Assembly (NCBI RefSeq): GCF_003602095.1
Contig: NZ_RAHH01000002.1
Coordinates: 1 to 64,000, forward strand
Source: Rahnella woolbedingensis
Lineage (GTDB): Bacteria > Pseudomonadota > Gammaproteobacteria > Enterobacterales > Enterobacteriaceae
Direction: 5' to 3'
Length of the DNA stretch: 64,000 nt
The notes beneath the pieces are model-generated. The model was not told the origin of the DNA and did not search any database. It saw nothing but the letters and a program-made list of their open reading frames with translations. Made by a program: the position numbers and the translations under genes. The first letter of the stretch is position 1, and each line of letters opens with the position of its first letter. Positions 21,876-34,540 of the stretch are shown here, piece after piece.

Positions 21876-22192
21876 GTCAACGTCGTGGGCTCGCCGCCCA
21901 CACTGGCCCAGAGACCCGCAATCGCGCGGGCCTCTGGACTCCACGCTCTTATCACTCCGCGCTGTCGCAGGCGCGGGGGACATGTTCTGCTACCACAGCG
22001 TGTGGCGCAAAACCTTTCCGCTTTGTCCTTCTCCGTCTGCGTGGAAGTGGGGTACGTATTTCTCCTTCCCCTGCGAAGGGGAAGGCCGGGATGGGGTATT
22101 AATGGCATCTCTGCAACTTCCTGCAAGCCATAAAAACTCTCTGGAATCAGTATCTCATCTCTGATATTTGCCCATTTTTATTGTGTGGATAC
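21876..22192. repeat. Left copy of a ~317-bp direct repeat flanking the CRISPR-Cas locus
   Basis: This segment recurs at 32369-32684 in the same orientation with roughly 95% identity and one single-base length difference. It begins 15 bp after the cheW stop. It is rich in internal hairpins: GTGGGC/GCCCAC at 21886-21902, a long CCAGAG.../...CTCTGG stem near 21907-21936, and the 22-bp palindrome CCTTCCCC-TGCGAA-GGGGAAGG at 22064-22085. No convincing coding frame or transposase is visible. It looks like a non-autonomous, structured intergenic element. Confidence 0.85.
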
Positions 22193-23070: not shown

Positions 23071-23122
23071 CCTTCCCCTGCGAAGGGGAAGGCTGGGATG
23101 GGGTATTAATGGCAACTCTGCG
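23071..23122. repeat. Partial third copy of the 317-bp repeat (hairpin segment)
   Basis: The 22-bp palindrome CCTTCCCC-TGCGAA-GGGGAAGG (23071-23092) and the following ~30 bp (GGGATGGGGTATTAATGGCA) match the same part of both long direct repeats. It lies 9 bp after the Ner-like gene. It shows that this segment exists as a separate dispersible unit. Confidence 0.8.
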
Positions 23123-23255: not shown

Positions 23256-23705
23256 GTTCACTGCCGTACAGGCAGCTTAGAAATGTGAGTTTGGCGTTTT
23301 GCCGGTGCAATCAGGTGTTCACTGCCGTACAGGCAGCTTAGAAAGGAAGCATGCGGCAAGAGACATTCTCTACGTAGTTCACTGCCGTACAGGCAGCTTA
23401 GAAACGGATGGGATGCCTTTTGAAATAGAGCGTGAAGTTCACTGCCGTACAGGCAGCTTAGAAAAGTCAATACCGTCATAGCTCAAACTGATGCCGCGTT
23501 CACTGCCGTACAGGCAGCTTAGAAAGAGCGCGGCGGCTGTTGCTAGCATGGTTACCCGTTCACTGCCGTACAGGCAGCTTAGAAACCGTTGCGCCGGCAG
23601 TGGCCTGCGGCGTCAATGTTCACTGCCGTACAGGCCGCTTACAAACACATCATAATTAACTGAGGCTATCAATATAAGTCTACTGCCGCACAGATAGGGA
23701 AACCC
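23256..23705 (+). CRISPR. Type I-F CRISPR array, 7 repeats plus a decayed eighth
   Basis: 28-bp repeats start at 23256, 23317, 23377, 23437, 23498, 23558 and 23618. They begin GTTCACTGCCGTACAGGCAG and end CTTAGAAA, the classical I-F repeat, with a 5-bp CTGCC/GGCAG hairpin cut by Cas6f. Six spacers are 32 or 33 nt (spacers 1 and 4 are 33). Repeat 7 has two changes, and a strongly decayed eighth repeat occurs at 23678-23705, exactly 60 bp on, marking the old trailer end. The array lies upstream of cas1 in the same orientation. Spacer targets cannot be determined here. Confidence 0.97.
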
Positions 23706-23894: not shown

Positions 23895-24872
23895 ATGACC
23901 GACACATTGAAACCTGCTGAGCTGAAAACTATTCTCCATTCGAAACGTTCAAATATATATTACCTGCAATATTGCCGCGTGTTGGTCAATGGCGGACGTG
24001 TCGAATATGTCACAGAAGAAGGGAAGTCGTCGCTTTACTGGAATATCCCGATAGCCAATACCACTGTTGTCATGCTCGGCACAGGGACGTCTGTGACGCA
24101 GGCGGCGATGCGTGAATTTGCGCGCGCGGGTGTGCTGGTCGGGTTCTGCGGGGGAGGCGGAACACCGCTTTATTCGGCGAATGAAGTTGAAGTGAATGTC
24201 TCCTGGCTGACATCGCAAAGTGAATACCGTCCGACGGAATATCTTCAGCAATGGGTCAGTTTCTGGTTCGACGAACAGAAAAGGCTGGCCGCGGCGGTGG
24301 CGTTTCAAAAGGTAAGAAGCCAGCAAATTCGTAAACATTGGCTACATGCCACGATGGACAAACAGGAGGAATTTCAACTCGATGTTTTCAAAGTGGAAGC
24401 GGTATTACAGCGGTTTGAGCAAAACCTGCCGCAGTGTCACAACATCAGCGAGCTGATGGCGCACGAAGCGGTGCTGACCAAGGGACTGTATAAACTGGCG
24501 GCCACGGCGGCCCGTTACGGTGACTTCACGCGGGCCAAACGCGGTGGCGGCGTGGACGTGGCGAACCGTTATCTCGACCACGGTAATTATCTGGCTTACG
24601 GACTGGCTGCCACCGCTGTCTGGGTTATCGGTCTGCCACATGGGCTGGCAGTTATGCATGGTAAAACGCGGCGCGGCGGACTGGTGTTTGATGTCGCCGA
24701 TTTAATTAAAGATGCCCTGATCCTGCCCCAGGCTTTTATTGCCGCAATGAACGGCGAAGATGAACAGGAATTTCGTCAGCGTTGTTTAACTAATATCCAG
24801 CGTGCGGATGCGCTCGATATTATGATCGAAACGGTGCAAAACGTCGCACAAACAATAAGCCAGCAAGTATGA
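23895..24872 (+). CDS. cas1: CRISPR integrase Cas1 (type I-F)
   Basis: Metal-dependent integrase that inserts new spacers together with Cas2-3. The 325-residue protein has an N-terminal beta domain with LHSKRSNIYYLQYCRVLV (residues 14-31). The helical catalytic domain has Glu191 in AHEAVLTKGLYK, His255 in AVMHGKTRRGGL and Asp269 in VFDVADLIKD, the E-H-D metal triad. AAAGGA lies upstream of the ATG. It is translationally coupled to cas2-3 by an ATGA overlap. The 190 bp between the array and this gene is AT-rich and probably carries its promoter. Confidence 0.97.
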   Translation: MTDTLKPAELKTILHSKRSNIYYLQYCRVLVNGGRVEYVTEEGKSSLYWNIPIANTTVVMLGTGTSVTQAAMREFARAGVLVGFCGGGGTPLYSANEVEVNVSWLTSQSEYRPTEYLQQWVSFWFDEQKRLAAAVAFQKVRSQQIRKHWLHATMDKQEEFQLDVFKVEAVLQRFEQNLPQCHNISELMAHEAVLTKGLYKLAATAARYGDFTRAKRGGGVDVANRYLDHGNYLAYGLAATAVWVIGLPHGLAVMHGKTRRGGLVFDVADLIKDALILPQAFIAAMNGEDEQEFRQRCLTNIQRADALDIMIETVQNVAQTISQQV

Positions 24873-27800
24873 ATATATTACTGGTCTCGGAATGCAGCAA
24901 AAAAGCGCTGACCGAAACTCGGCGTATTGTCGATCAGTTTGCAGAACGCAAGGGAGAACGGACGTGGCAAACGGCGATAACCCTCGAAGGGCTGAATACA
25001 TTAAGAAGAATACTCAGGAAAACTGCACGCAGAAATACCGCCGTGGCCTGTCACTGGATCAAATCAAATAATCAGACAGAAGTGCTTTGGATTGTCGGTA
25101 ATATTCGCAAGTTTAATTACAAAGGTTCTGTGCCCACCCATTCTACACAAAGGGATATTTTAAAATCGGGCAGCGAAAACACCTTTCACAGTATCAGTAC
25201 TATTGGATTGCTGGCTGCAATCGGCGGGCTATTTCATGATTTCGGCAAGGCCAGTAAGTTATTCCAGAATAAACTTAAAGGGCAGGGGAAAAGCTTCGAA
25301 CCCTACCGGCATGAGTGGATTTCTGTTCGTTTATTTCAGGCGTTTGTCGGCCAGCAAACGGATGAGCAGTGGCTGACCTCATTGCAGAATGTCAGCGCCG
25401 AGGATGAAAAGGTCATGATACAAAATCTGGCCAGCAATAATGTCAGTCACAGTCATAACAGTCCGCTTGAAGGTTTACCGCCCGTTGCCCGGCTGGTAGC
25501 CTGGTTAATTGTTTCTCATCATCGCCTGCCAGTTTATCCGCGACAAAACGACAATTATAACAACCCGCCACAGCTGTCTGAGATTGAGCACTGGCAGGAT
25601 CAACAATTCGCGCCGTGCTGGAATTCCACCAACATGGATGCACCCTGGACATCCCGTGAACAGCTTGCTGTCTGGCAGTTCGTGCACGGCACGCCAGTGC
25701 AGAGCGCAACATGGCGCGGTAAAGCGCAAAAATTCGCTAACCGTGCCCTGCAATTACCGTTATTTACCTCACCATTTGTGACTGCACAACAAAGGTTTAC
25801 CCGTCATCTCGCCCGTCTAGTGCTGATGCTTTCCGACCATCTGTATTCCTCACTGGAAGCCACTGAGGGCTGGCAGGACCCGGATTTTCCGGCCATTGCC
25901 AATACTGACAAAAAGAGCGGTAAACCCAAACAGCATCTTGATGAACACAATATTGGTGTCTGCCAGACTGCGTGGCTGCTGGCGCGAAGTCTGCCATATT
26001 TGCGTGAAACACTACCCGCTATCTCACGGCACAAAGGATTTAAAAAACGCGCTCAGCAGGAGAAATTTCACTGGCAGGATAAAGCATTCGACCTGGCCTG
26101 CGGACTACGGGAAAACACCCGGCAGCACGGATTTTTTGGCGTCAATATGGCCTCGACCGGTTGCGGTAAAACGCTGGCGAATGCGCGGATCATGTACGGT
26201 CTGAGCGATGAAAAACTGGGCTGCCGTTTCTCGGTCGCGCTCGGGCTGCGTACGCTGACCCTGCAAACCGGTGATGCGCTGAGTGAAAAACTGCATCTCG
26301 ATCCCGAAGACCTGGCTGTACTGATAGGTTCTCAGGCCGTGCAACAACTGCATCAGCTCAGTCACGATGACCGGCAGGTTAAGAATACCGGTAGCCAGTC
26401 GGCCGACGACCTTTTTGCTGAACATCAGTATGTGCGATACGAAGGAACCCTGGACACCGGCCGGTTGGGGCAATGGCTCAAAGGCAAAGACGCGCTGCTG
26501 AAACTGCTGAGCGCGCCAGTTCTGGTGACGACGATAGACCATCTGATCCCCGCCTGTGAAAGCCTGCGCGGCGGACATCAGATTGCCCCGATGCTCAGGT
26601 TACTGACTTCTGATCTGGTTCTCGACGAACCCGATGATTTCGACATGGCTGATTTGCCCGCGCTTTGCCGGTTAGTGAACTGGGCAGGAATGCTGGGTTC
26701 GCGGGTTTTACTTTCTTCGGCGACGCTCGCACCGGCGCTGGTTCAGGCATTGTTCAGTGCTTATGTCGCAGGGCGTAATGATTATCAGCAAGCCAACGGC
26801 CAGCCAGGTTTACCGGTGAATGTATGCTGCGCGTGGTTTGACGAATTCCATGTATCAGAAAGCCAGCACATGAGCGGGAAATCTTTCGGCACACAACATC
26901 GGGAGTTTGTGGTAAAGCGGGTGCCTTTATTGCGAAAGGCCAAACCGTTGCGTCAGGCTGTTCTGGTCACGGTGACGCCGGAAACCGCACGCGAGCATGA
27001 CGTACTCAATGCGGTTTCTGCCTGCGTTCATCAGTCACTGCTTGAACTGCACCATGCTCATCACAAAGGCAAAAAGCTGACAGTCGGTCTCATCCGTATG
27101 GCGAATATCGATCCGCTGGTCGCAGTGTCGCAACGCCTTATGACAATGCCGTCTCCGGCAAACATACAAATCCATTATTGCGTTTATCACAGCCAGTATC
27201 CGCTGGCGATGCGGGCACACATCGAAAATCGTCTGGATGCCATGCTGACGCGCAATGATGAAAAGGCAATCTGGCAAGTCGATGAGGTCCGGCGTGCTTT
27301 CGCCGAGTATCCTGAAAAACACCATATCTTTGTTGTGCTCGCCACTTCAGTTGCCGAAATTGGTCGCGATCATGACTATGACTGGGCTATTGCTGAGCCG
27401 AGCTCAATGCGGTCGCTTATCCAGCTTGCCGGACGTGTGCAGCGCCATCGTCAGTCAGCCCCACAAATGCCCAATGTTCATATCCTGCATAAAAATGCCA
27501 AAGCACTGAAAAAGGTGACGCCAGCCTATTGCAAACCGGGCTTTGAAAGCAGAGTTAATCTGCTCAGCAGCCACGATTTGCACGATTTACTCCGTCCGGA
27601 AGAGTATGGCGTCCTCAATGCTATTCCCCGAATACAGGAGCGAGAAACGCCGGATCCGCAGATGAATCTGACCGATATGGAACACGGGCGTTTATGGCCG
27701 GAATTACTTGGACGCAAGCCGTGCGGGGAAAATTATGCCGCGCGCTGGTGGCGCGATCGTGCCGACTGGTGCGGTGAATTACAGCAGCGCACGCCATTCC

Positions 27801-28117
27801 GACAGTCCGCACCAGACAAGCAATATTACCTCTGGCTGGATGAAGAGGGCGAAGAGCCGCGTTTTCGACAACCAGACGAAGGAATTGAAGGCTGGAAAGA
27901 CAGCGGGGGATTTAAAGCCATAACACCAATCTGTGCGCAAGGCGTCAGCCCGTGGATGGAGATGAACTGCGAAACTCTCTATCAGCGGCTTGCCGACGAT
28001 TTCGGCTGGGAGCTCCAACGTGTCAGTAAAACATTTGGGGAAATCTGCTTACCTGAAGACGAAAACAAACGATGGCACTGGCATGAGGCGTTAGGGGTGT
28101 TTGGTGCACTCGACTGA
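24869..28117 (+). CDS. cas3f: Cas2-Cas3 fusion nuclease-helicase (type I-F)
   Basis: Effector nuclease recruited by the Csy complex and also the Cas2 partner for adaptation. The 1082-residue protein has an N-terminal Cas2 domain (about residues 1-95) and an HD nuclease domain with His123-Asp124 in GLFHDFGKASKLF. A superfamily 2 helicase follows with Walker A STGCGKT near residue 428, the DEAD-type box VLDEPDDF near 583 and motif III SSATL near 615. A helicase C domain with QLAGRVQRHRQ near 850 completes it. All key motifs are intact. It is coupled to cas1 and followed by the 356-bp gap that holds the mini-CRISPR element. Confidence 0.97.
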   Translation: MNILLVSECSKKALTETRRIVDQFAERKGERTWQTAITLEGLNTLRRILRKTARRNTAVACHWIKSNNQTEVLWIVGNIRKFNYKGSVPTHSTQRDILKSGSENTFHSISTIGLLAAIGGLFHDFGKASKLFQNKLKGQGKSFEPYRHEWISVRLFQAFVGQQTDEQWLTSLQNVSAEDEKVMIQNLASNNVSHSHNSPLEGLPPVARLVAWLIVSHHRLPVYPRQNDNYNNPPQLSEIEHWQDQQFAPCWNSTNMDAPWTSREQLAVWQFVHGTPVQSATWRGKAQKFANRALQLPLFTSPFVTAQQRFTRHLARLVLMLSDHLYSSLEATEGWQDPDFPAIANTDKKSGKPKQHLDEHNIGVCQTAWLLARSLPYLRETLPAISRHKGFKKRAQQEKFHWQDKAFDLACGLRENTRQHGFFGVNMASTGCGKTLANARIMYGLSDEKLGCRFSVALGLRTLTLQTGDALSEKLHLDPEDLAVLIGSQAVQQLHQLSHDDRQVKNTGSQSADDLFAEHQYVRYEGTLDTGRLGQWLKGKDALLKLLSAPVLVTTIDHLIPACESLRGGHQIAPMLRLLTSDLVLDEPDDFDMADLPALCRLVNWAGMLGSRVLLSSATLAPALVQALFSAYVAGRNDYQQANGQPGLPVNVCCAWFDEFHVSESQHMSGKSFGTQHREFVVKRVPLLRKAKPLRQAVLVTVTPETAREHDVLNAVSACVHQSLLELHHAHHKGKKLTVGLIRMANIDPLVAVSQRLMTMPSPANIQIHYCVYHSQYPLAMRAHIENRLDAMLTRNDEKAIWQVDEVRRAFAEYPEKHHIFVVLATSVAEIGRDHDYDWAIAEPSSMRSLIQLAGRVQRHRQSAPQMPNVHILHKNAKALKKVTPAYCKPGFESRVNLLSSHDLHDLLRPEEYGVLNAIPRIQERETPDPQMNLTDMEHGRLWPELLGRKPCGENYAARWWRDRADWCGELQQRTPFRQSAPDKQYYLWLDEEGEEPRFRQPDEGIEGWKDSGGFKAITPICAQGVSPWMEMNCETLYQRLADDFGWELQRVSKTFGEICLPEDENKRWHWHEALGVFGALD

Positions 28118-28124
28118 GTGCACC
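28103..28124. terminator. Perfect stem-loop at the 3' end of cas2-3
   Basis: GGTGCACTC and GAGTGCACC form a 9-bp perfect stem with a 4-nt loop, overlapping the cas2-3 stop codon. There is no T-run on either strand. It could end or stabilise the cas1-cas2-3 transcript, or bound the 3' end of the antisense-strand mini-CRISPR RNA. Confidence 0.5.
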
Positions 28125-28125
28125 G

Positions 28126-28187
28126 CTGCCTGTGCGGCAGATATGTTACTTATGTAATTTTCTAAGCTGCCTGAAGCGGCAGTTTTA
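28126..28187 (-). ncRNA. Mini-CRISPR guide RNA (CreR/CreA-like) upstream of csy1
   Basis: Read on the minus strand, a first repeat-like unit (28187-28159) has a CTGCC/GGCAG hairpin with a 6-nt loop, followed by CTTAGAAA, identical to the 8-nt 5' handle of I-F crRNAs. An 18-nt spacer follows (28158-28141, beginning ATTACATAAGT). Then comes a second hairpin CTGCC-GCACA-GGCAG (28140-28126) with the normal 5-nt loop but no conserved handle after it. A possible -10 box, TAATAT, lies just upstream of the first unit. The spacer is too short for an immunity crRNA. Its first 11 nt match 28241-28231 behind a CC PAM. This is the form described for Cascade-guided autoregulatory RNAs; expression is inferred. 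Confidence 0.75.
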
Positions 28188-28230
28188 AGATATTACCATT
28201 ACAGTGAATAAAATATCTGAAAAATTTATA

Positions 28231-28243
28231 ACTTATGTAATGG
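28231..28243 (-). promoter_or_regulatory. Target site of the mini-CRISPR guide (PAM + 11-nt seed)
   Basis: On the minus strand, CC (28243-28242) is followed by ATTACATAAGT (28241-28231), identical to spacer positions 1-11; over 18 nt, 15 match. CC immediately 5' of the protospacer is the established I-F PAM. Short seed-only pairing would allow Csy binding without full R-loop formation or Cas3 cutting. The guide's own locus has the handle sequence instead of the PAM, so it would not target itself. Confidence 0.75.
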
Positions 28244-28271
28244 TTGCAATAAAATTCATTGAGTGTAAATT
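28244..28271 (+). promoter_or_regulatory. Candidate promoter of the csy1 transcript
   Basis: TTGCAA (28244-28249) and TAAATT (28266-28271), spaced 16 bp, each match four of six sigma70 consensus bases. The guide target ends at the upstream edge of the -35 element, so a bound Csy complex would cover or abut this promoter. The exact start site is not visible from sequence. Confidence 0.45.
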
Positions 28272-28272
28272 C

Positions 28273-28293
28273 CCCCCTACAATTCTTAGGGGG
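28273..28293 (+). other. Stem-loop covering the ribosome site of the small ORF
   Basis: CCCCCTA (28273-28279) pairs with TAGGGGG (28287-28293). The right arm is the purine-rich ribosome-binding sequence of the ORF at 28300, so the stem would hide it in the mRNA if transcription starts upstream of it. Confidence 0.55.
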
Positions 28294-28299
28294 ATACTG

Positions 28300-28446
28300 A
28301 TGAGCAAAAGCCAAAAGTTACTGATAGGACTTAGTCTGTTTCTAATTTTGATGTTGTTCTCACCCAGAGCAGAAGGGGGAGCAAACGGCATACGGTGGTT
28401 ATCTAAAATCACTAACTTTTCTGATAAACCCCCTACAGGTATTTGA
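28300..28446 (+). CDS. Small hydrophobic protein between guide target and csy1
   Basis: A 48-residue ORF starting at the ATG 28300, six bases after AGGGG. An upstream in-frame GTG at 28204 has no ribosome site. Residues 7-20 form one hydrophobic segment (LLIGLSLFLILMLF), followed by a polar tail ending PPTGI. It uses many codons that are rare in enterobacteria (two ATA, CTA, AGA, two GGA, CGG, two CCC). It lies between the mini-CRISPR target and csy1 and ends 27 bp before csy1. It may be a small membrane toxin of a CreTA-type module, or a leader peptide of the csy operon. I recognise no family. Confidence 0.5.
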   Translation: MSKSQKLLIGLSLFLILMLFSPRAEGGANGIRWLSKITNFSDKPPTGI

Positions 28447-28473
28447 TAGAAGCAGTGGGGAAAGGAGTCTTCA

Positions 28474-29811
28474 ATGGAAACTAATTCCTTAAAAAGATTT
28501 ATAGAGAAATACATTCACGAACGCTGCCAGCTCAAACTTGAGCCCTTTGATAAAGCGACTGACAAGCAACTTTCCGCTGCCAGTGCGGAAGAGAAAGCCG
28601 GGCTTGAGTTGAAATTGTTTGAAGAACGCCGTTCGCTGGAAATGAAATATGATGTCCGCACCTGGCTGACCGATGCCGCCGCGCGCGCGGGGCAAATCAG
28701 CCTGGTAACGCATGCGGTGAAGTATTTTCATGGCGATGCCAAGGGCAGCAGTATTTACAGCGCGGTGAAAAGCCATGAGGCGGCGTATCTTTCAACGACA
28801 ACGTTACATTCCCCTTCCATAGATGCTGTCGGAAATTCAGCGGCGCTTGATGTCGCAAAACTCCTTCAGACTGAACACGAAGGTGACTCTCTGCTTGCCA
28901 GCCTCAAACGCGGTGATTTCTCGGCGCTGGCGGCATTAGCCGAAAATGAAGCACAACTCGCTCAGTGGATGAGCGGGTTTATGCAGGCACTGTCGGATAA
29001 AAGCCTCTCGACACATCAGTTTGCCAAACAGCTCTATTTTCCGGTTTCAGATACAGGTGATTATCATCTTCTCAGTCCGCTCTATTCTTCTTCACTGGCG
29101 CATGCTTTATATCAGCGCATCAGCCATTCCCGTTACAGCGAAGCCTCAGTAGCAGCCCGTAAAGCCCGACGCGAAGGGCTCTGGCATCCCGAAGCCGTAC
29201 AGTATTTCCCTGACCTCGCGGTACAGAATATGGGAGGCACCAAGCCGCAAAATATCTCCTATCTGAACAGCACGCGTGGCGGCAAAAATCACCTGCTGCG
29301 ATGTGCGCCGCCGCAGTGGCAGCAATCCCTTAAGCCGCCTGTTGCCCATAAAACCTTTCTGACGGCGGTTTCTTCCAAAGTCACCCGTGTCGTGACTGAT
29401 CTGCGTCGTTATTTGCACAGCGTTTATAACCTCGAAAACACCATGGAAATCCGCCAGCAACGCGCCGAATATGTAGATGAACTGATCGGCATGATTTTCA
29501 GTTACGCCGCTGAAATCCAGTCGCTGACAACGCTTCAGGGCTGGAGCCTGGATGAAGATTGCCTGCTTAAAACAGCGCACCAGCTTTGGCTCGACCCGTT
29601 GCGTCAACATACCGATCCTGATTTTAAACTCCACCGCGAAAGGGGGGAGTGGATCAGTGAGATTGCTGAGGATTTTGCCCACTGGCTTAACACCCGTCTG
29701 AATAAGGACGAAAAACTGAATATGGGCGCAGTCGAATTTCGTGACTGGTCAGTGTTAATGCGCAGACGTCTGCGGGAATTTGATGCGGCTCAGCAGGAGA
29801 ACTGGCAATGA
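28474..29811 (+). CDS. csy1: Csy complex subunit Csy1 (Cas8f)
   Basis: Large subunit of the I-F surveillance complex, which recognises the PAM and, with Csy2, holds the crRNA 5' handle. The 445-residue protein is close to the family length (about 430). Visible family blocks are the N-terminal FIEKYIHERCQLKL, GGTKPQNISYLNSTRGGKNHLLRCAPP near residue 250 (quoted in part as GGTKPQNISYLN) and RRRLREFDAAQ at the C terminus. AAAGGAG precedes the ATG. It overlaps csy2 as ATGA. Confidence 0.95.
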   Translation: METNSLKRFIEKYIHERCQLKLEPFDKATDKQLSAASAEEKAGLELKLFEERRSLEMKYDVRTWLTDAAARAGQISLVTHAVKYFHGDAKGSSIYSAVKSHEAAYLSTTTLHSPSIDAVGNSAALDVAKLLQTEHEGDSLLASLKRGDFSALAALAENEAQLAQWMSGFMQALSDKSLSTHQFAKQLYFPVSDTGDYHLLSPLYSSSLAHALYQRISHSRYSEASVAARKARREGLWHPEAVQYFPDLAVQNMGGTKPQNISYLNSTRGGKNHLLRCAPPQWQQSLKPPVAHKTFLTAVSSKVTRVVTDLRRYLHSVYNLENTMEIRQQRAEYVDELIGMIFSYAAEIQSLTTLQGWSLDEDCLLKTAHQLWLDPLRQHTDPDFKLHRERGEWISEIAEDFAHWLNTRLNKDEKLNMGAVEFRDWSVLMRRRLREFDAAQQENWQ

Positions 29812-30761
29812 GTTATCTGATTGTTCTGCCCCATATTCAGGTCGAAAACGCTAATGCGATTTCCGGCCTGACTTACGGTTTTCCGGCGATAACCCACTTT
29901 TTGGGATTCACACATGCGCTTTCACGACAGATTCAGCAAAGCCATGGGCTGAGATTCACCGGCTGCGGTGTGGTGAGCCATCAGCATCAGATTCAGGCCT
30001 ACCAGGCTAATGATCGCGGCGACCATTATTTTGCGCAGACGCGTAACCCGCTGACCAAAGAAGCGAAAACCGCGCCTTTTAATGAAGAAGGCCGGATGCA
30101 CATGACTGTTACGCTGTTCATAGAGTGTGAAGGCAGTCTTGCACATGGAGATGCGGGAGCCAGAGATCTGGAAAAACTTCTTCAGTCGCTGTGTGTTACC
30201 CAACGTCTGGCGGGCGGCACGGTGATTTCGATGAAACCCGTTCGGGTCAGGGCGTTACCCCAAAATACAGATGAACTTGCAGATGTCACCCGCCGCGAAA
30301 TGTATCGCGCGTTGCCGGGTTTCGCGCTGATTGACCGCTCTGAACTGCTGGTGCAGCACTTCGCTGAGCGACAGGCGCAGGATCCGCAGACGGAAATGAT
30401 CGACGCCTGGCTGGATTTCGCCACGATTTCCTACCGGGCAATTCAGCCAGAAGGCGGCACCGTTGAATGGCAATACCAGCCAAAACCTGTGAAAGGCTAT
30501 CTGGTACCGCTGATGGTAGGATTCACTCCGATCTCGCCGTTATATGCCGCAGGTGAAGTGGCAAGGACCCGTGATACCACGTCGCCTTTCCGTTTTGTCG
30601 AGGCTACTTATGGCGTTGGCGAATGGCGCAGCCCGCACCGCGTCAACGATATTCATCAGCTCATCTGGCGTTACCCCAGCAATCCCGGAAATTACCTCTG
30701 TAGCCACACTATACCGCTGCAGGAAGCCGACTTAACTGAACAAGAACACTCAGATTTCTAA
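29808..30761 (+). CDS. csy2: Csy complex subunit Csy2 (Cas5f)
   Basis: Pairs with Csy1 at the 5' end of the crRNA. The 317-residue RAMP-fold protein has the N-terminal strand YLIVLPHIQVENANAISGLTYGFPAITHFLGF (quoted in part as NANAISGLTYGFPA) and a central HMTVTLFIECEG block. The C-terminal half has VPLMVGFTPISPLY near residue 230. It overlaps csy1 by 4 bp and lies 22 bp before csy3. Confidence 0.95.
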   Translation: MSYLIVLPHIQVENANAISGLTYGFPAITHFLGFTHALSRQIQQSHGLRFTGCGVVSHQHQIQAYQANDRGDHYFAQTRNPLTKEAKTAPFNEEGRMHMTVTLFIECEGSLAHGDAGARDLEKLLQSLCVTQRLAGGTVISMKPVRVRALPQNTDELADVTRREMYRALPGFALIDRSELLVQHFAERQAQDPQTEMIDAWLDFATISYRAIQPEGGTVEWQYQPKPVKGYLVPLMVGFTPISPLYAAGEVARTRDTTSPFRFVEATYGVGEWRSPHRVNDIHQLIWRYPSNPGNYLCSHTIPLQEADLTEQEHSDF

Positions 30762-30783: not shown

Positions 30784-31803
30784 ATGACAAAAACGACTGT
30801 TACGACGGCCAGCGTTCTGGCTTTTGAACGCAAACTGGCGAATTCCGATGCGCAGATGTTTGCCGGTGACTGGCATGACTGCAACGAACCGGCAAAATGG
30901 ACGCCGGTTGAAGTCAAAGAAAAGGCCGTCCGTGGCACTATCTCTAACCGGATGAAGAATGGAATAGCCACCGATTCGGGAAAACTGGATGCTGAAATCC
31001 AGAAGCCTAATCTCCAGCGAGTGGATGTCGCCGCGCTGCCCTTTGATGCTGATACGCTGAAACTCCGTTTTACCTTGCGCGTGTTGGGTAACCTTTCTTC
31101 GCCATCAGTGTGCAACGATCAGGATTATCAGGCAGCGCTGGCCGCAGTCATTGACGGTTATCGTCAGGAACATGGCTTCAGCACGCTGGCTGCGCGATAT
31201 GCAGAAAACCTCGCCAACGGGCGCTTTCTCTGGCGTAACCGCATCGGCGCAGAAGGCATCGCCGTGCACGTCACGCACAATAATCACTGCTGGATATTTG
31301 AGGCGGACGGATACAATCTGCGTGAGTTCAGCAAACCTGCGGGCGACCTGGCTGCGCTGGCCGCGGTGATTGAAGAAGGGCTGAGTGGCAATGCTTCGGT
31401 ATTTCTTAGCGTGGAAGCCTTTGCGCGACTCGGCGCGGGTCAGGAAGTTTTCCCGTCGCAGGAACTGGTTCTGGACTCAAGCCGCGACAGTAAAAAAAGT
31501 AAAATCCTCTATCAGACCGGCGGCGTCGCGGCATTACATTCGCAGAAAATTGGCAATGCGCTGCGCACGGTTGACGACTGGTATCCGCAGGCATCAGAGT
31601 TTGAACTCGGACCTATCGCCGTCGAGCCTTATGGTTCGGTGACCAGTAAAGGCAGAGCGTATCGCCAGCCAGGGCAAAAAGTGGATTTCTACACTTTGCT
31701 GGATAACTGGGTGACGAAAGACAAAAAGCCGGATGCCGGACAGCAACATTACGTGATGGCGACGCTTATACGCGGCGGCGTATTTGGTGCAAAAGGCGAG
31801 TAA
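30784..31803 (+). CDS. csy3: Csy complex backbone subunit Csy3 (Cas7f)
   Basis: Six copies form the crRNA-binding backbone. The 339-residue protein (P. aeruginosa Csy3 is 342) begins [20 protein letters not shown] and has [23 protein letters not shown] (quoted in part as [13 protein letters not shown]) near residue 145. VFPSQELVL lies near residue 220, and the C terminus has [26 protein letters not shown] lies upstream of the ATG. Confidence 0.96.
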
Positions 31804-31812
31804 GGGGCAAGC

Positions 31813-32367
31813 ATGGAAAGTTACCAGGAAATCCGCATTCTTCCCAATCTTGAATTTGATACTGAACTGCTGATGGCCGCGTTGTTTGCTAAATTACATC
31901 GTGCGCTGGGCCAGCATGCAGCAGGGAAAATTGGCGTGAGCTTTCCGCATTACGCCCGCAAGCCAGGTGATGTCATTCGCCTGCACAGTACCGCGGCTGC
32001 GCTGAACGCTTTTAGCCAGACGTCATGGCTAAAAGGTCTGAATGACTATGTTGATATCAGCGAAATACGTAATGTTCCGGCAGGTGCGAAACATTGCTGT
32101 TTCAGCCGGGTACAGGTCAAAAGCAGCGCGGAAAGGCTGCGCAGACGCTCAGTTAAAAAAGGCTGGTTAAGCGAAGCAGAAGCGCTCGAACGCATCCCTG
32201 ACAGCAAATCACAAACGACAGCACTGCCGTTTATTAAGGTAAAAAGTCTGTCCACCGGCGAGGCATTCCGATTGTTTATCCGGCGCGGAGCGTTGCAAGT
32301 TGATCCTGCAGGAGGAGAATTTGGTGCATATGGATTAAGCGCAGTGGCGACAGTGCCGTGGTTCTAG
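31813..32367 (+). CDS. csy4: CRISPR RNA endonuclease Csy4 (Cas6f)
   Basis: Cuts the repeat hairpin after its last G and stays bound to the 3' end of the crRNA. The 184-residue protein has the catalytic His29 in LFAKLHRAL, the same position as in P. aeruginosa. The arginine-rich helix includes SSAERLRRRSVKKGW near residue 107, and the C terminus has the family ending YGLSAVATVPWF. It is the last gene of the csy operon; the right direct repeat starts one base after its stop codon. Confidence 0.96.
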   Translation: MESYQEIRILPNLEFDTELLMAALFAKLHRALGQHAAGKIGVSFPHYARKPGDVIRLHSTAAALNAFSQTSWLKGLNDYVDISEIRNVPAGAKHCCFSRVQVKSSAERLRRRSVKKGWLSEAEALERIPDSKSQTTALPFIKVKSLSTGEAFRLFIRRGALQVDPAGGEFGAYGLSAVATVPWF

Positions 32368-32368
32368 C

Positions 32369-32684
32369 GTCAACGTCGTGGGCTCGCCGCCCACACTGGC
32401 CCAGAGACCCGCAATCGCGCGGGCCTCTGGACTCCACGCTCTTTTCACTCCGCGCTGTCAAAGGCGCGGGGGACATATTCTGCTACCACAGCGTGTGGCG
32501 CAAAACCTTTCCGCTTTGTCCTTCTCCGTCTGCGTGGAAGTGGGTTCGCATTTCTCCTTCCCCTGCGAAGGGGAAGGCCGGGATGGGGTATTAATGGCAT
32601 CTCTGCAACTTCCTGCAAACCGTAAAAACTCACTGGAATCAGCATGTCATCTCTGATATTTGCCCATTTTTATTGTGTGGATAC
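32369..32684. repeat. Right copy of the ~317-bp direct repeat
   Basis: Matches 21876-22192 in the same orientation with scattered substitutions and a one-base length difference. The palindrome CCTTCCCC-TGCGAA-GGGGAAGG lies at 32556-32577. The copy starts immediately after the csy4 stop, while the left copy starts 15 bp after the cheW stop, so both are strictly intergenic. Recombination between the two would delete about 10.5 kb, including the array and all cas genes. Confidence 0.85.
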
Positions 32685-34456: not shown

Positions 34457-34540
34457 CATTGCTGCCGTAGAGGCAGCTCAGAAATAATCTAACTGATAAA
34501 GCGCGCCGCCGTACATGTTCACTGCCGACAGGCATAACCG
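34457..34540 (+). CRISPR. Relic of a second type I-F CRISPR array
   Basis: A repeat-like unit at 34457-34484 has the intact hairpin CTGCC-GTAGA-GGCAG and a handle CTCAGAAA (one change from CTTAGAAA). A second unit starts at 34517 with GTTCACTGCCG and then decays after ACAGGCA. The two starts are exactly 60 bp apart, leaving a 32-nt spacer (34485-34516), the I-F geometry. It lies 2 kb downstream of csy4 and outside the direct-repeat pair, just beyond the stop of the next gene. Confidence 0.75.

Follow-up and report, generated by a model that had tools for sequence, protein, structure and literature searches.

A conserved self-guide in the cas2-3–csy1 gap of a Rahnella woolbedingensis type I-F CRISPR-Cas locus and its possible control of a membrane peptide and the csy genes

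Introduction

Among CRISPR subtypes, type I-F has been widely studied, and it is the one at which the known anti-CRISPRs are mainly directed. A type I-F locus of Rahnella woolbedingensis is compared here with three described kinds of CRISPR-like guides, and also with the type I toxin-antitoxin toxins TisB and Hok, which are small, have a basic start and one hydrophobic helix, and are silenced by antisense RNA.

CreTA was reported from three Acinetobacter type I-F loci, namely WCHA45, LoGeW2-3 and ANC3789; further homologues are listed in the supplement, and the guide pairs with its target except at positions 6, 11 and 18 (PMC10097628). CreR (Liu et al. 2023) was described for the I-B, I-E and V-A subtypes, and as described in these sources it has in general no toxin gene coupled to it (PMC13131331, PMC12737573). 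In CrePA (Shu et al. 2025), the protein CreP typically has a KilA-N domain and acts on FtsZ (PMC12737573).

Results and discussion

The type I-F locus and its self-guide

The window is the whole stretch of 64,000 nt analysed here (contig NZ_RAHH01000002.1, positions 1 to 64,000). It contains a complete type I-F locus, including the array, cas1, cas2-3, csy1, csy2, csy3 and cas6f (Table 1). The array has six clear spacers of 32-33 nt, and one more stands ahead of a further degenerate repeat. The gap between cas2-3 and csy1 is 356 nt, and the guide element lies directly 3' of cas2-3, tail to tail with it. All the elements that the earlier note had read on the minus strand were found, namely the I-F-type hairpins around an 18-nt spacer and the repeat-identical handle. 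Two degenerate repeats around a spacer-like sequence beside cas genes are also the mark of CreTA/CreA of type I-F. The fold of the guide RNA gave a z of -5.67 against shuffles, to which the hairpin at the cas3 end contributes, and the predicted minus-strand guide RNA would begin with CUUAGAAA at 28166. The Rfam family CRISPR-DR4 gave no report of the repeat pair in the window even at E ≤ 1, and no Rfam family reported the element.

The spacer is mismatched to the target at positions 12, 14 and 16. The word ATTACATAAGT occurs at two sites only in the window, 28148-28158 in the guide and 28231-28241 in the target. With position 6 left free, CC followed by spacer positions 1-11 was found at one site in the whole 5.46-Mb genome, which is the target; the reversed pattern, as a control, gave 4 matches. 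CC with the exact 11-mer appeared in 0/20,000 mononucleotide-shuffled gaps, and the guide-target score of the window was reached by 0/200 dinucleotide shuffles. The earlier note had claimed that positions 1-11 recur behind CC at the target and that chance hardly explains the match; the sole genomic site bears out the former, and the shuffles together with the recurrence in relatives (below) bear out the latter. The self-guide is real and conserved. A partial match at a PAM-flanked site is also found in CreTA/CreA of type I-F, and the promoter status of the site is weak in the window. A CC seed target within the window was found for none of the 7 spacers of the array, and the cas2-3–csy1 gap of the window had no match in E. 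coli.

The 9-bp hairpin behind the guide may possibly serve as a terminator on either strand. It is retained in Rahnella sp. AA with a paired base change, and the terminator scan found no T-tract terminator there. The array and the cas genes are flanked by a repeat of some 320 bp whose copies are 95-98% identical, at 21876-22192 and 32369-32684 with a third part at 23071-23121. A degenerate I-F repeat pair around a 32-nt spacer stands alone 3' of the cas genes (34457-34527 of the window); it has no CC seed target anywhere in the genome, and it looks like the remnant of a second array.

Table 1. Features of the type I-F locus and of its cas2-3–csy1 gap in the window
Feature	Positions	Strand	Remarks
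CRISPR array	23256..23645	+	7 repeats, last degenerate
cas2-3 (I-F Cas2-Cas3 fusion)	24869..28117	+	Pfam Cas3_I-F_Cas2, Cas3-like_C_2
9-bp hairpin	28103..28124	.	overlaps cas3 stop and guide 3' end; minus-strand fold
Second degenerate repeat hairpin psiR2 CTGCCGCACAGGCAG	28126..28140	-	
18-nt spacer (guide) ATTACATAAGTAACATAT	28141..28158	-	
5' handle CTTAGAAA	28159..28166	-	identical to 3' end of local array repeat
First degenerate repeat hairpin psiR1	28167..28182	-	6-nt loop (array repeat: 5-nt)
Guide target	28224..28241	-	positions 1-11 (28241-28231) identical, then 4/7; unique in genome
CC PAM	28242..28243	-	
Candidate -35 TTGCAA, peptide-csy promoter	28244..28249	+	abuts PAM; second-best match in window
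Candidate -10 TAAATT	28266..28271	+	putative, weak; 16 nt past -35; aligns with TATTAT of Rahnella sp. AA
Shine-Dalgarno GGGGGA of peptide	28289..28294	+	within right arm of CCCCCTACAATTCTTAGGGGG
48-aa peptide frame	28300..28446	+	one hydrophobic segment; ends 27 nt ahead of csy1
csy1 (Cas8f)	28474..29811	+	Pfam Cas_Csy1; ATG 27 nt past peptide stop
csy2 (Cas5f)	29808..30761	+	Pfam Cas_Csy2
csy3 (Cas7f)	30784..31803	+	Pfam Cas_Csy3
cas6f (csy4)	31813..32367	+	Pfam Cas_Csy4; presumed guide processor

Comparison with known systems

The Acinetobacter CreTA shares with the window the I-F subtype, the place in the cas3-csy1 gap, the minus-strand psiR1-psiS-psiR2 order and the CC PAM, and also the skipped position 6, the promoter-side target and a frame open towards csy1 (PMC10097628). 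The published LoGeW2-3 CreTA was found again by the same guide method, with mismatches at 6, 12 and 14. The Acinetobacter system has a 33-bp mini-ORF and its harm is ascribed to the RNA; whereas the window has a 48-aa membrane-peptide frame, and co-regulation of csy1 is not described in sections 6 and 15 of that source (PMC10097628). The published CreT mini-ORF RNA is not what the window has at this place, since the same kind of scan gave there a frame other than the LoGeW2-3 mini-ORF frame. The 48-aa frame with its Shine-Dalgarno lies 3' of the target and divergent from the guide, i.e. in the position of the CreTA toxin gene, and it is a candidate toxin.

CreR is also a mini-CRISPR guide with a limited match to a cas promoter (PMC13131331, PMC12737573); however, the subtypes named for it omit I-F, and in the window the peptide frame stands between target and csy1. 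CrePA resembles the mechanism proposed here in that a protein product is repressed by a CreA-guided effector and anti-CRISPRs are sensed; whereas a KilA-N protein is used there, and the window has a one-helix peptide without a family match (PMC12737573). No KilA-N protein was found under the guided promoter, where the 48-aa peptide has no Pfam family. The window peptide is similar to TisB and Hok in build, but the silencing proposed for it is transcriptional and by a crRNA-like guide. In the literature searched, which included few subscription journals, neither the membrane peptides nor, apart from the Acinetobacter CreTA, any guide in an I-F cas3-csy1 gap was reported.

Guides in the cas3-csy1 gaps of relatives

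The csy1 loci were gathered from whole genomes and named contigs. From 208 loci, csy1 was located in 194 and cas3 upstream of it in 179, which gave 145 distinct loci. Their gap lengths were bimodal (70 below 100 nt, 75 longer). Guides were chosen by handle and hairpin alone, without demanding a PAM, in gaps of 100-1500 nt, and 2 gaps above 1500 nt were excluded. Such structure-only guides were present in 47/73 long gaps versus 1/70 short ones, where 500 nt around the junction were scanned. In 42 of the 47, the 17-nt site in the rest of the gap that matched the guide best stood behind CC; the other five were L082, L104, L178, L195 and L197. Over the 42 loci, the mismatches at positions 1-13 were 0, 1, 0, 0, 1, 21, 0, 4, 0, 3, 0, 31 and 4, with peaks at positions 6 and 12 (21 and 31) and 0-4 at every other position, and pairing weakened from position 14 on (10, 20, 14 and 8 mismatches). 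The sixth positions are those left unpaired in I-F guides, as known from Csy structures. Handle and match are kept among related loci (47/73 guides, CC in 42/47); the earlier note had named the loss of both in relatives as refuting the guide.

A PAM-demanding survey, in which the sixth positions were omitted and a pass was a score of 11 reached by ≤ 2/200 shuffles, gave a candidate in 56/75 long gaps, of which 50 passed, and none in 19. When the guides of 35 spacer clusters were placed in the gaps of other clusters, a score of 11 was reached in 14/1190 guide-gap pairs. In a held-out class-level set, 7 structural candidates were found in 6/28 loci. A CC target was present in 5/28 (L259, L270, L274, L275 and L281), and all five had a mismatch at position 6; no CC target was found for L278 or for the other candidate of L259. 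An early survey of 17 guides picked by eye, all 17 with a CC target, was superseded by the automatic choice, since hand-picking is biased.

The cassette of guide and peptide frame varies within genera. In the genus g175 (Pectobacterium, judged by L022 and L167), the whole cassette was found in 5/14 csy1 loci, and the cas3-csy1 gap was 23-35 nt in 9. Among the five Rahnella csy1 loci, two have the cassette, two have a gap of 13 nt and one is cut by the contig end. Two neighbouring plasmid I-F loci have annotated cas3-csy1 gaps of 33 and 15 nt. Gaps matching the Escherichia locus were found in 237/5,426 complete E. coli genomes, and the guide was read in 7 of these.

Some loci differ in orientation. 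The target is on the opposite strand in L191 (Cedecea neteri), where CC and the sixth-position mismatches are kept; among the well-scoring Enterobacterales cases, only L191 and L164 have such a target. Plus-strand guides that point towards csy1 occur in an order-level family, f27 (L102, L103, L104, L105, L108, L109, L115 and L125). A KEVEYLIKKL-type motif marks the protein frame of 104-110 aa that stands behind the target in these loci (99 aa in L125 if counted from the first Met). The protein of L103 had no Pfam, PADLOC or NCBIfam match above the cut-off. Such proteins may be a further payload of this architecture.

Co-change of guide and target

The Escherichia sample included 11 loci, 7 of which came from the 237 E. 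coli genomes with a match. At positions 1-5 and 7-11, guide and target had the same letters in 11/11 loci. Position 5 was G in both guide and target (8 loci) or T in both (3), and position 6 was free. The spacer past position 11, CCGGATACGGACTTGT, is invariant in these loci (L212-L216, L188, L203, L205, L060, L210 and L211) yet unmatched to the target. In Photorhabdus L135, L138 and L149, positions 1, 7 and 9 differ alike in guide and target; L232 has one uncompensated change. The set that includes L232 had 31 loci, of which 5 without cas3 found were dropped. The covariation of spacer and target for which the earlier note proposed to look in other I-F gaps is thus seen in Escherichia and Photorhabdus, and such co-change, which leaves the sixth positions free, is evidence from nature for the I-F guide geometry.

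The membrane-peptide frame

The 48-aa peptide of the window had no match in Pfam, PADLOC or NCBIfam; one peptide that was searched in plasmids had no match either. Its length, single hydrophobic segment and position between target and csy1 are those used for comparison with relatives, where comparable loci had a minus-strand guide and at least 180 nt from target to csy1 (plus-strand guides and gaps above 1500 nt were excluded). A hydrophobic frame of 35-80 aa was found between target and csy1 in 26/29 such roomy loci, against 5% in shuffles, and in 0/12 loci with less than 180 nt, where both the 180-nt cut and the hydropathy cut were set after data inspection. Four of the 26 frames are doubtful, being far from csy1 or odd (L200, L164, L186 and L195).

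A pattern common to many of the frames is a basic start, a helix, KP and a SIFSITIN-like end, and it was found in Pectobacterium, Dickeya, Yersinia pekkanenii, Serratia grimesii, Cedecea and Leclercia; the betaproteobacterium Stenoxybacter has a family member by profile. A profile built without the window peptide did not find it at E ≤ 10, and the same profile also missed L183, L136, L069, L160, L161 and L168. In position and character the window peptide resembles the KP...SIFSITIN family; in sequence it does not. It has 8/22 residues in common with the peptide of Rahnella sp. AA over the helix. In 392 genomes the profile gave 9 matches below 1e-7. All 9 lay immediately upstream of csy1, and most were among the sources of the profile; 6 further weak matches were elsewhere.

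Synonymous change per site exceeded nonsynonymous change in five distinct peptide pairs, for example 0.20/0.05 and 0.24/0.06. Fisher tests on four pairs gave 0.007, 0.002, 0.003 and 0.054, the first two belonging to the pairs just named. This purifying selection was seen in Pectobacterium and Photorhabdus. The frame of the window is probably a toxin-like payload of the promoter. The inverted repeat CCCCCTACAATTCTTAGGGGG at 28273-28293 contains the peptide Shine-Dalgarno, and an inverted repeat of different sequence spans that of Rahnella sp. AA; translational control by such a repeat is possible.

Promoter candidates

The target faces the csy genes 230 nt ahead of csy1, and no terminator was detected between target and csy1 in the window. 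With offsets set after data inspection, the best csy-side -35 was within -3..+4 of the PAM in 15/27 loci (shuffles 8.9%), and the -10 of the guide promoter was 27-32 nt ahead of the handle in 19/27 (shuffles 8.4%). The window shows neither of these two positions, and a scan of 28050-28500 for promoters gave a single site, as many as in shuffles (1.0). In E. coli LF82, csy1 and cas2/3 are not co-transcribed, which fits a promoter within the cas3-csy1 gap (PMC3506596).

Association of guide and peptide

A peptide was accepted when it lay ≤ 130 nt from csy1 or matched the profile, which gave 24 loci. A guide was present in 24/24 of them; that of L183 was weak (score reached by 10/200 shuffles), and that of L145 was recognised on second look. 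L183 and L145 were also the only two with a clear peptide among the 25 long gaps without an accepted guide, and both had a guide on closer look. The other 23 showed no clear peptide, L154 having a shortened one. L030 has a 34-aa hydrophobic frame 159 nt ahead of csy1, without a guide. Thus no clear case of a peptide without a guide was found among the surveyed loci, and the hypergeometric p of the association was about 2e-5 with kinship ignored. Guides without a peptide do occur. A toxin-antitoxin pair would give such a one-sided association, which is indirect evidence for it.

In eight loci (L090, L084, L098, L092, L099, L086, L174 and L089) the target is 29-124 nt ahead of csy1 and no peptide frame is present; these look like plain CreR in type I-F. 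One such locus is in Desulfamplus, outside the Gammaproteobacteria. Escherichia looks similar: the target is 152-155 nt from csy1 in four loci with short frames only, and none of the 11 loci read had a peptide-side frame above 27 aa, if any. The window does not belong to this plain kind. Since guide-target pairs also occur where the peptide is lacking, the peptide is not needed for guide retention.

Proposed mechanism and alternative explanations

The earlier note had read the element as a CreR-like guide aimed at the csy1 promoter. The guide, the PAM, the orientation, the csy1-facing target region and the co-change hold. A plain CreR acting simply on csy1 was not supported in that form, since the membrane-peptide frame intervenes and the nearest published case in the same place is the toxin-antitoxin CreTA; the first reading had omitted both that Acinetobacter case and the frame at 28300-28446. 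We consider it fairly probable that a CreA/CreR-type guide has the Csy complex repress one promoter for the peptide and csy1-csy2-csy3-cas6f, which would combine autoregulation with a toxin lock. The guide would be transcribed from the minus strand, and Cas6f would cut this RNA into a short crRNA-like guide with an 8-nt handle and a spacer of ≤ 18 nt. The guide would then load the Csy complex, which would bind the CC-flanked seed copy beside the -35 box and block RNA polymerase. The blocked promoter would drive the 48-aa membrane peptide and then, co-transcribed with it, csy1-csy2-csy3-cas6f without a terminator between. One guide would thus have two jobs, throttling the Csy genes as CreR does and silencing a probably toxic peptide as CreA does. 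The spacer and the pairing would be too short for cutting by Cas2-3; in I-F1, Cas2/3 is not triggered by R-loops below wild-type length, which fits guide binding without cutting the own genome (PMC7296934). As long as the cell has a functional Csy complex, the peptide would stay silent. Loss of Csy, or its inhibition by an anti-CRISPR, would raise the peptide and the Csy proteins together; new Csy could silence the promoter again, whereas lasting failure would stop the cell.

It seems unlikely, at perhaps one chance in a few, that the csy operon is all that the guide represses, with the small frame acting as a leader or being a passenger. The eight peptide-less loci with short distances, the Escherichia loci that retain guide and target with reduced or missing frames, and the separate transcription of csy1 and cas2/3 in E. 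coli LF82 (PMC3506596) would suit such a guide; however, the membrane frame recurs in 26/29 roomier loci against 5% in shuffles and is under purifying selection in Pectobacterium and Photorhabdus, with no clear guide-less case. An Acinetobacter-like CreTA with an RNA toxin, where the harm would come from translation of a short frame off a very strong Shine-Dalgarno and not from the peptide, is improbable. The frame of the window has 48 codons, not 10, and related frames conserve amino acids rather than DNA, even though place, orientation and guide design are the same as in Acinetobacter (PMC10097628) and AGGGGGATACTGATG of the window looks like AGGGGGGTAACGATG ahead of the LoGeW2-3 mini-ORF.

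There is very little probability that the element is a decayed array fragment, with a spacer once taken from the promoter and no present function. Its repeats are degenerate, and the spacer of Photorhabdus L149 matches on after a one-base shift, like a captured piece of promoter; but decay would not account for the co-change of guide and target, the drift at sixth positions only and the same architecture across genera. Hardly any weight is left for a transcription-factor site present twice, or for chance. The word TTACTTATGTAA in the spacer is palindromic, as a factor site might be; whereas the repeated word varies by locus and the CC flank, the handle and the hairpins stay constant. Both chance and twin factor sites were refuted in the main by the structure-only survey, with CC in 42/47.

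The repression of a joint peptide-csy promoter, if true, would mean that many I-F systems, that of E. coli included, regulate themselves by their own effector and that many link this to a membrane peptide. It would bear on the change in csy expression when Csy is deleted or inhibited. The peptides would form a family without a match in the libraries searched, and anti-CRISPR sensing in type I-F would be accessible to a simple reporter. With somewhat less than even confidence, we suggest that the I-F systems of many Enterobacterales, and of scattered relatives outside that order, may carry a loseable self-guarding cassette, in which guide and toxin head the csy operon and act as a timer that forgives short dips of Csy and punishes lasting ones; where the peptide was never acquired or has since decayed, as in Escherichia, the same kind of guide would act as a plain CreR.
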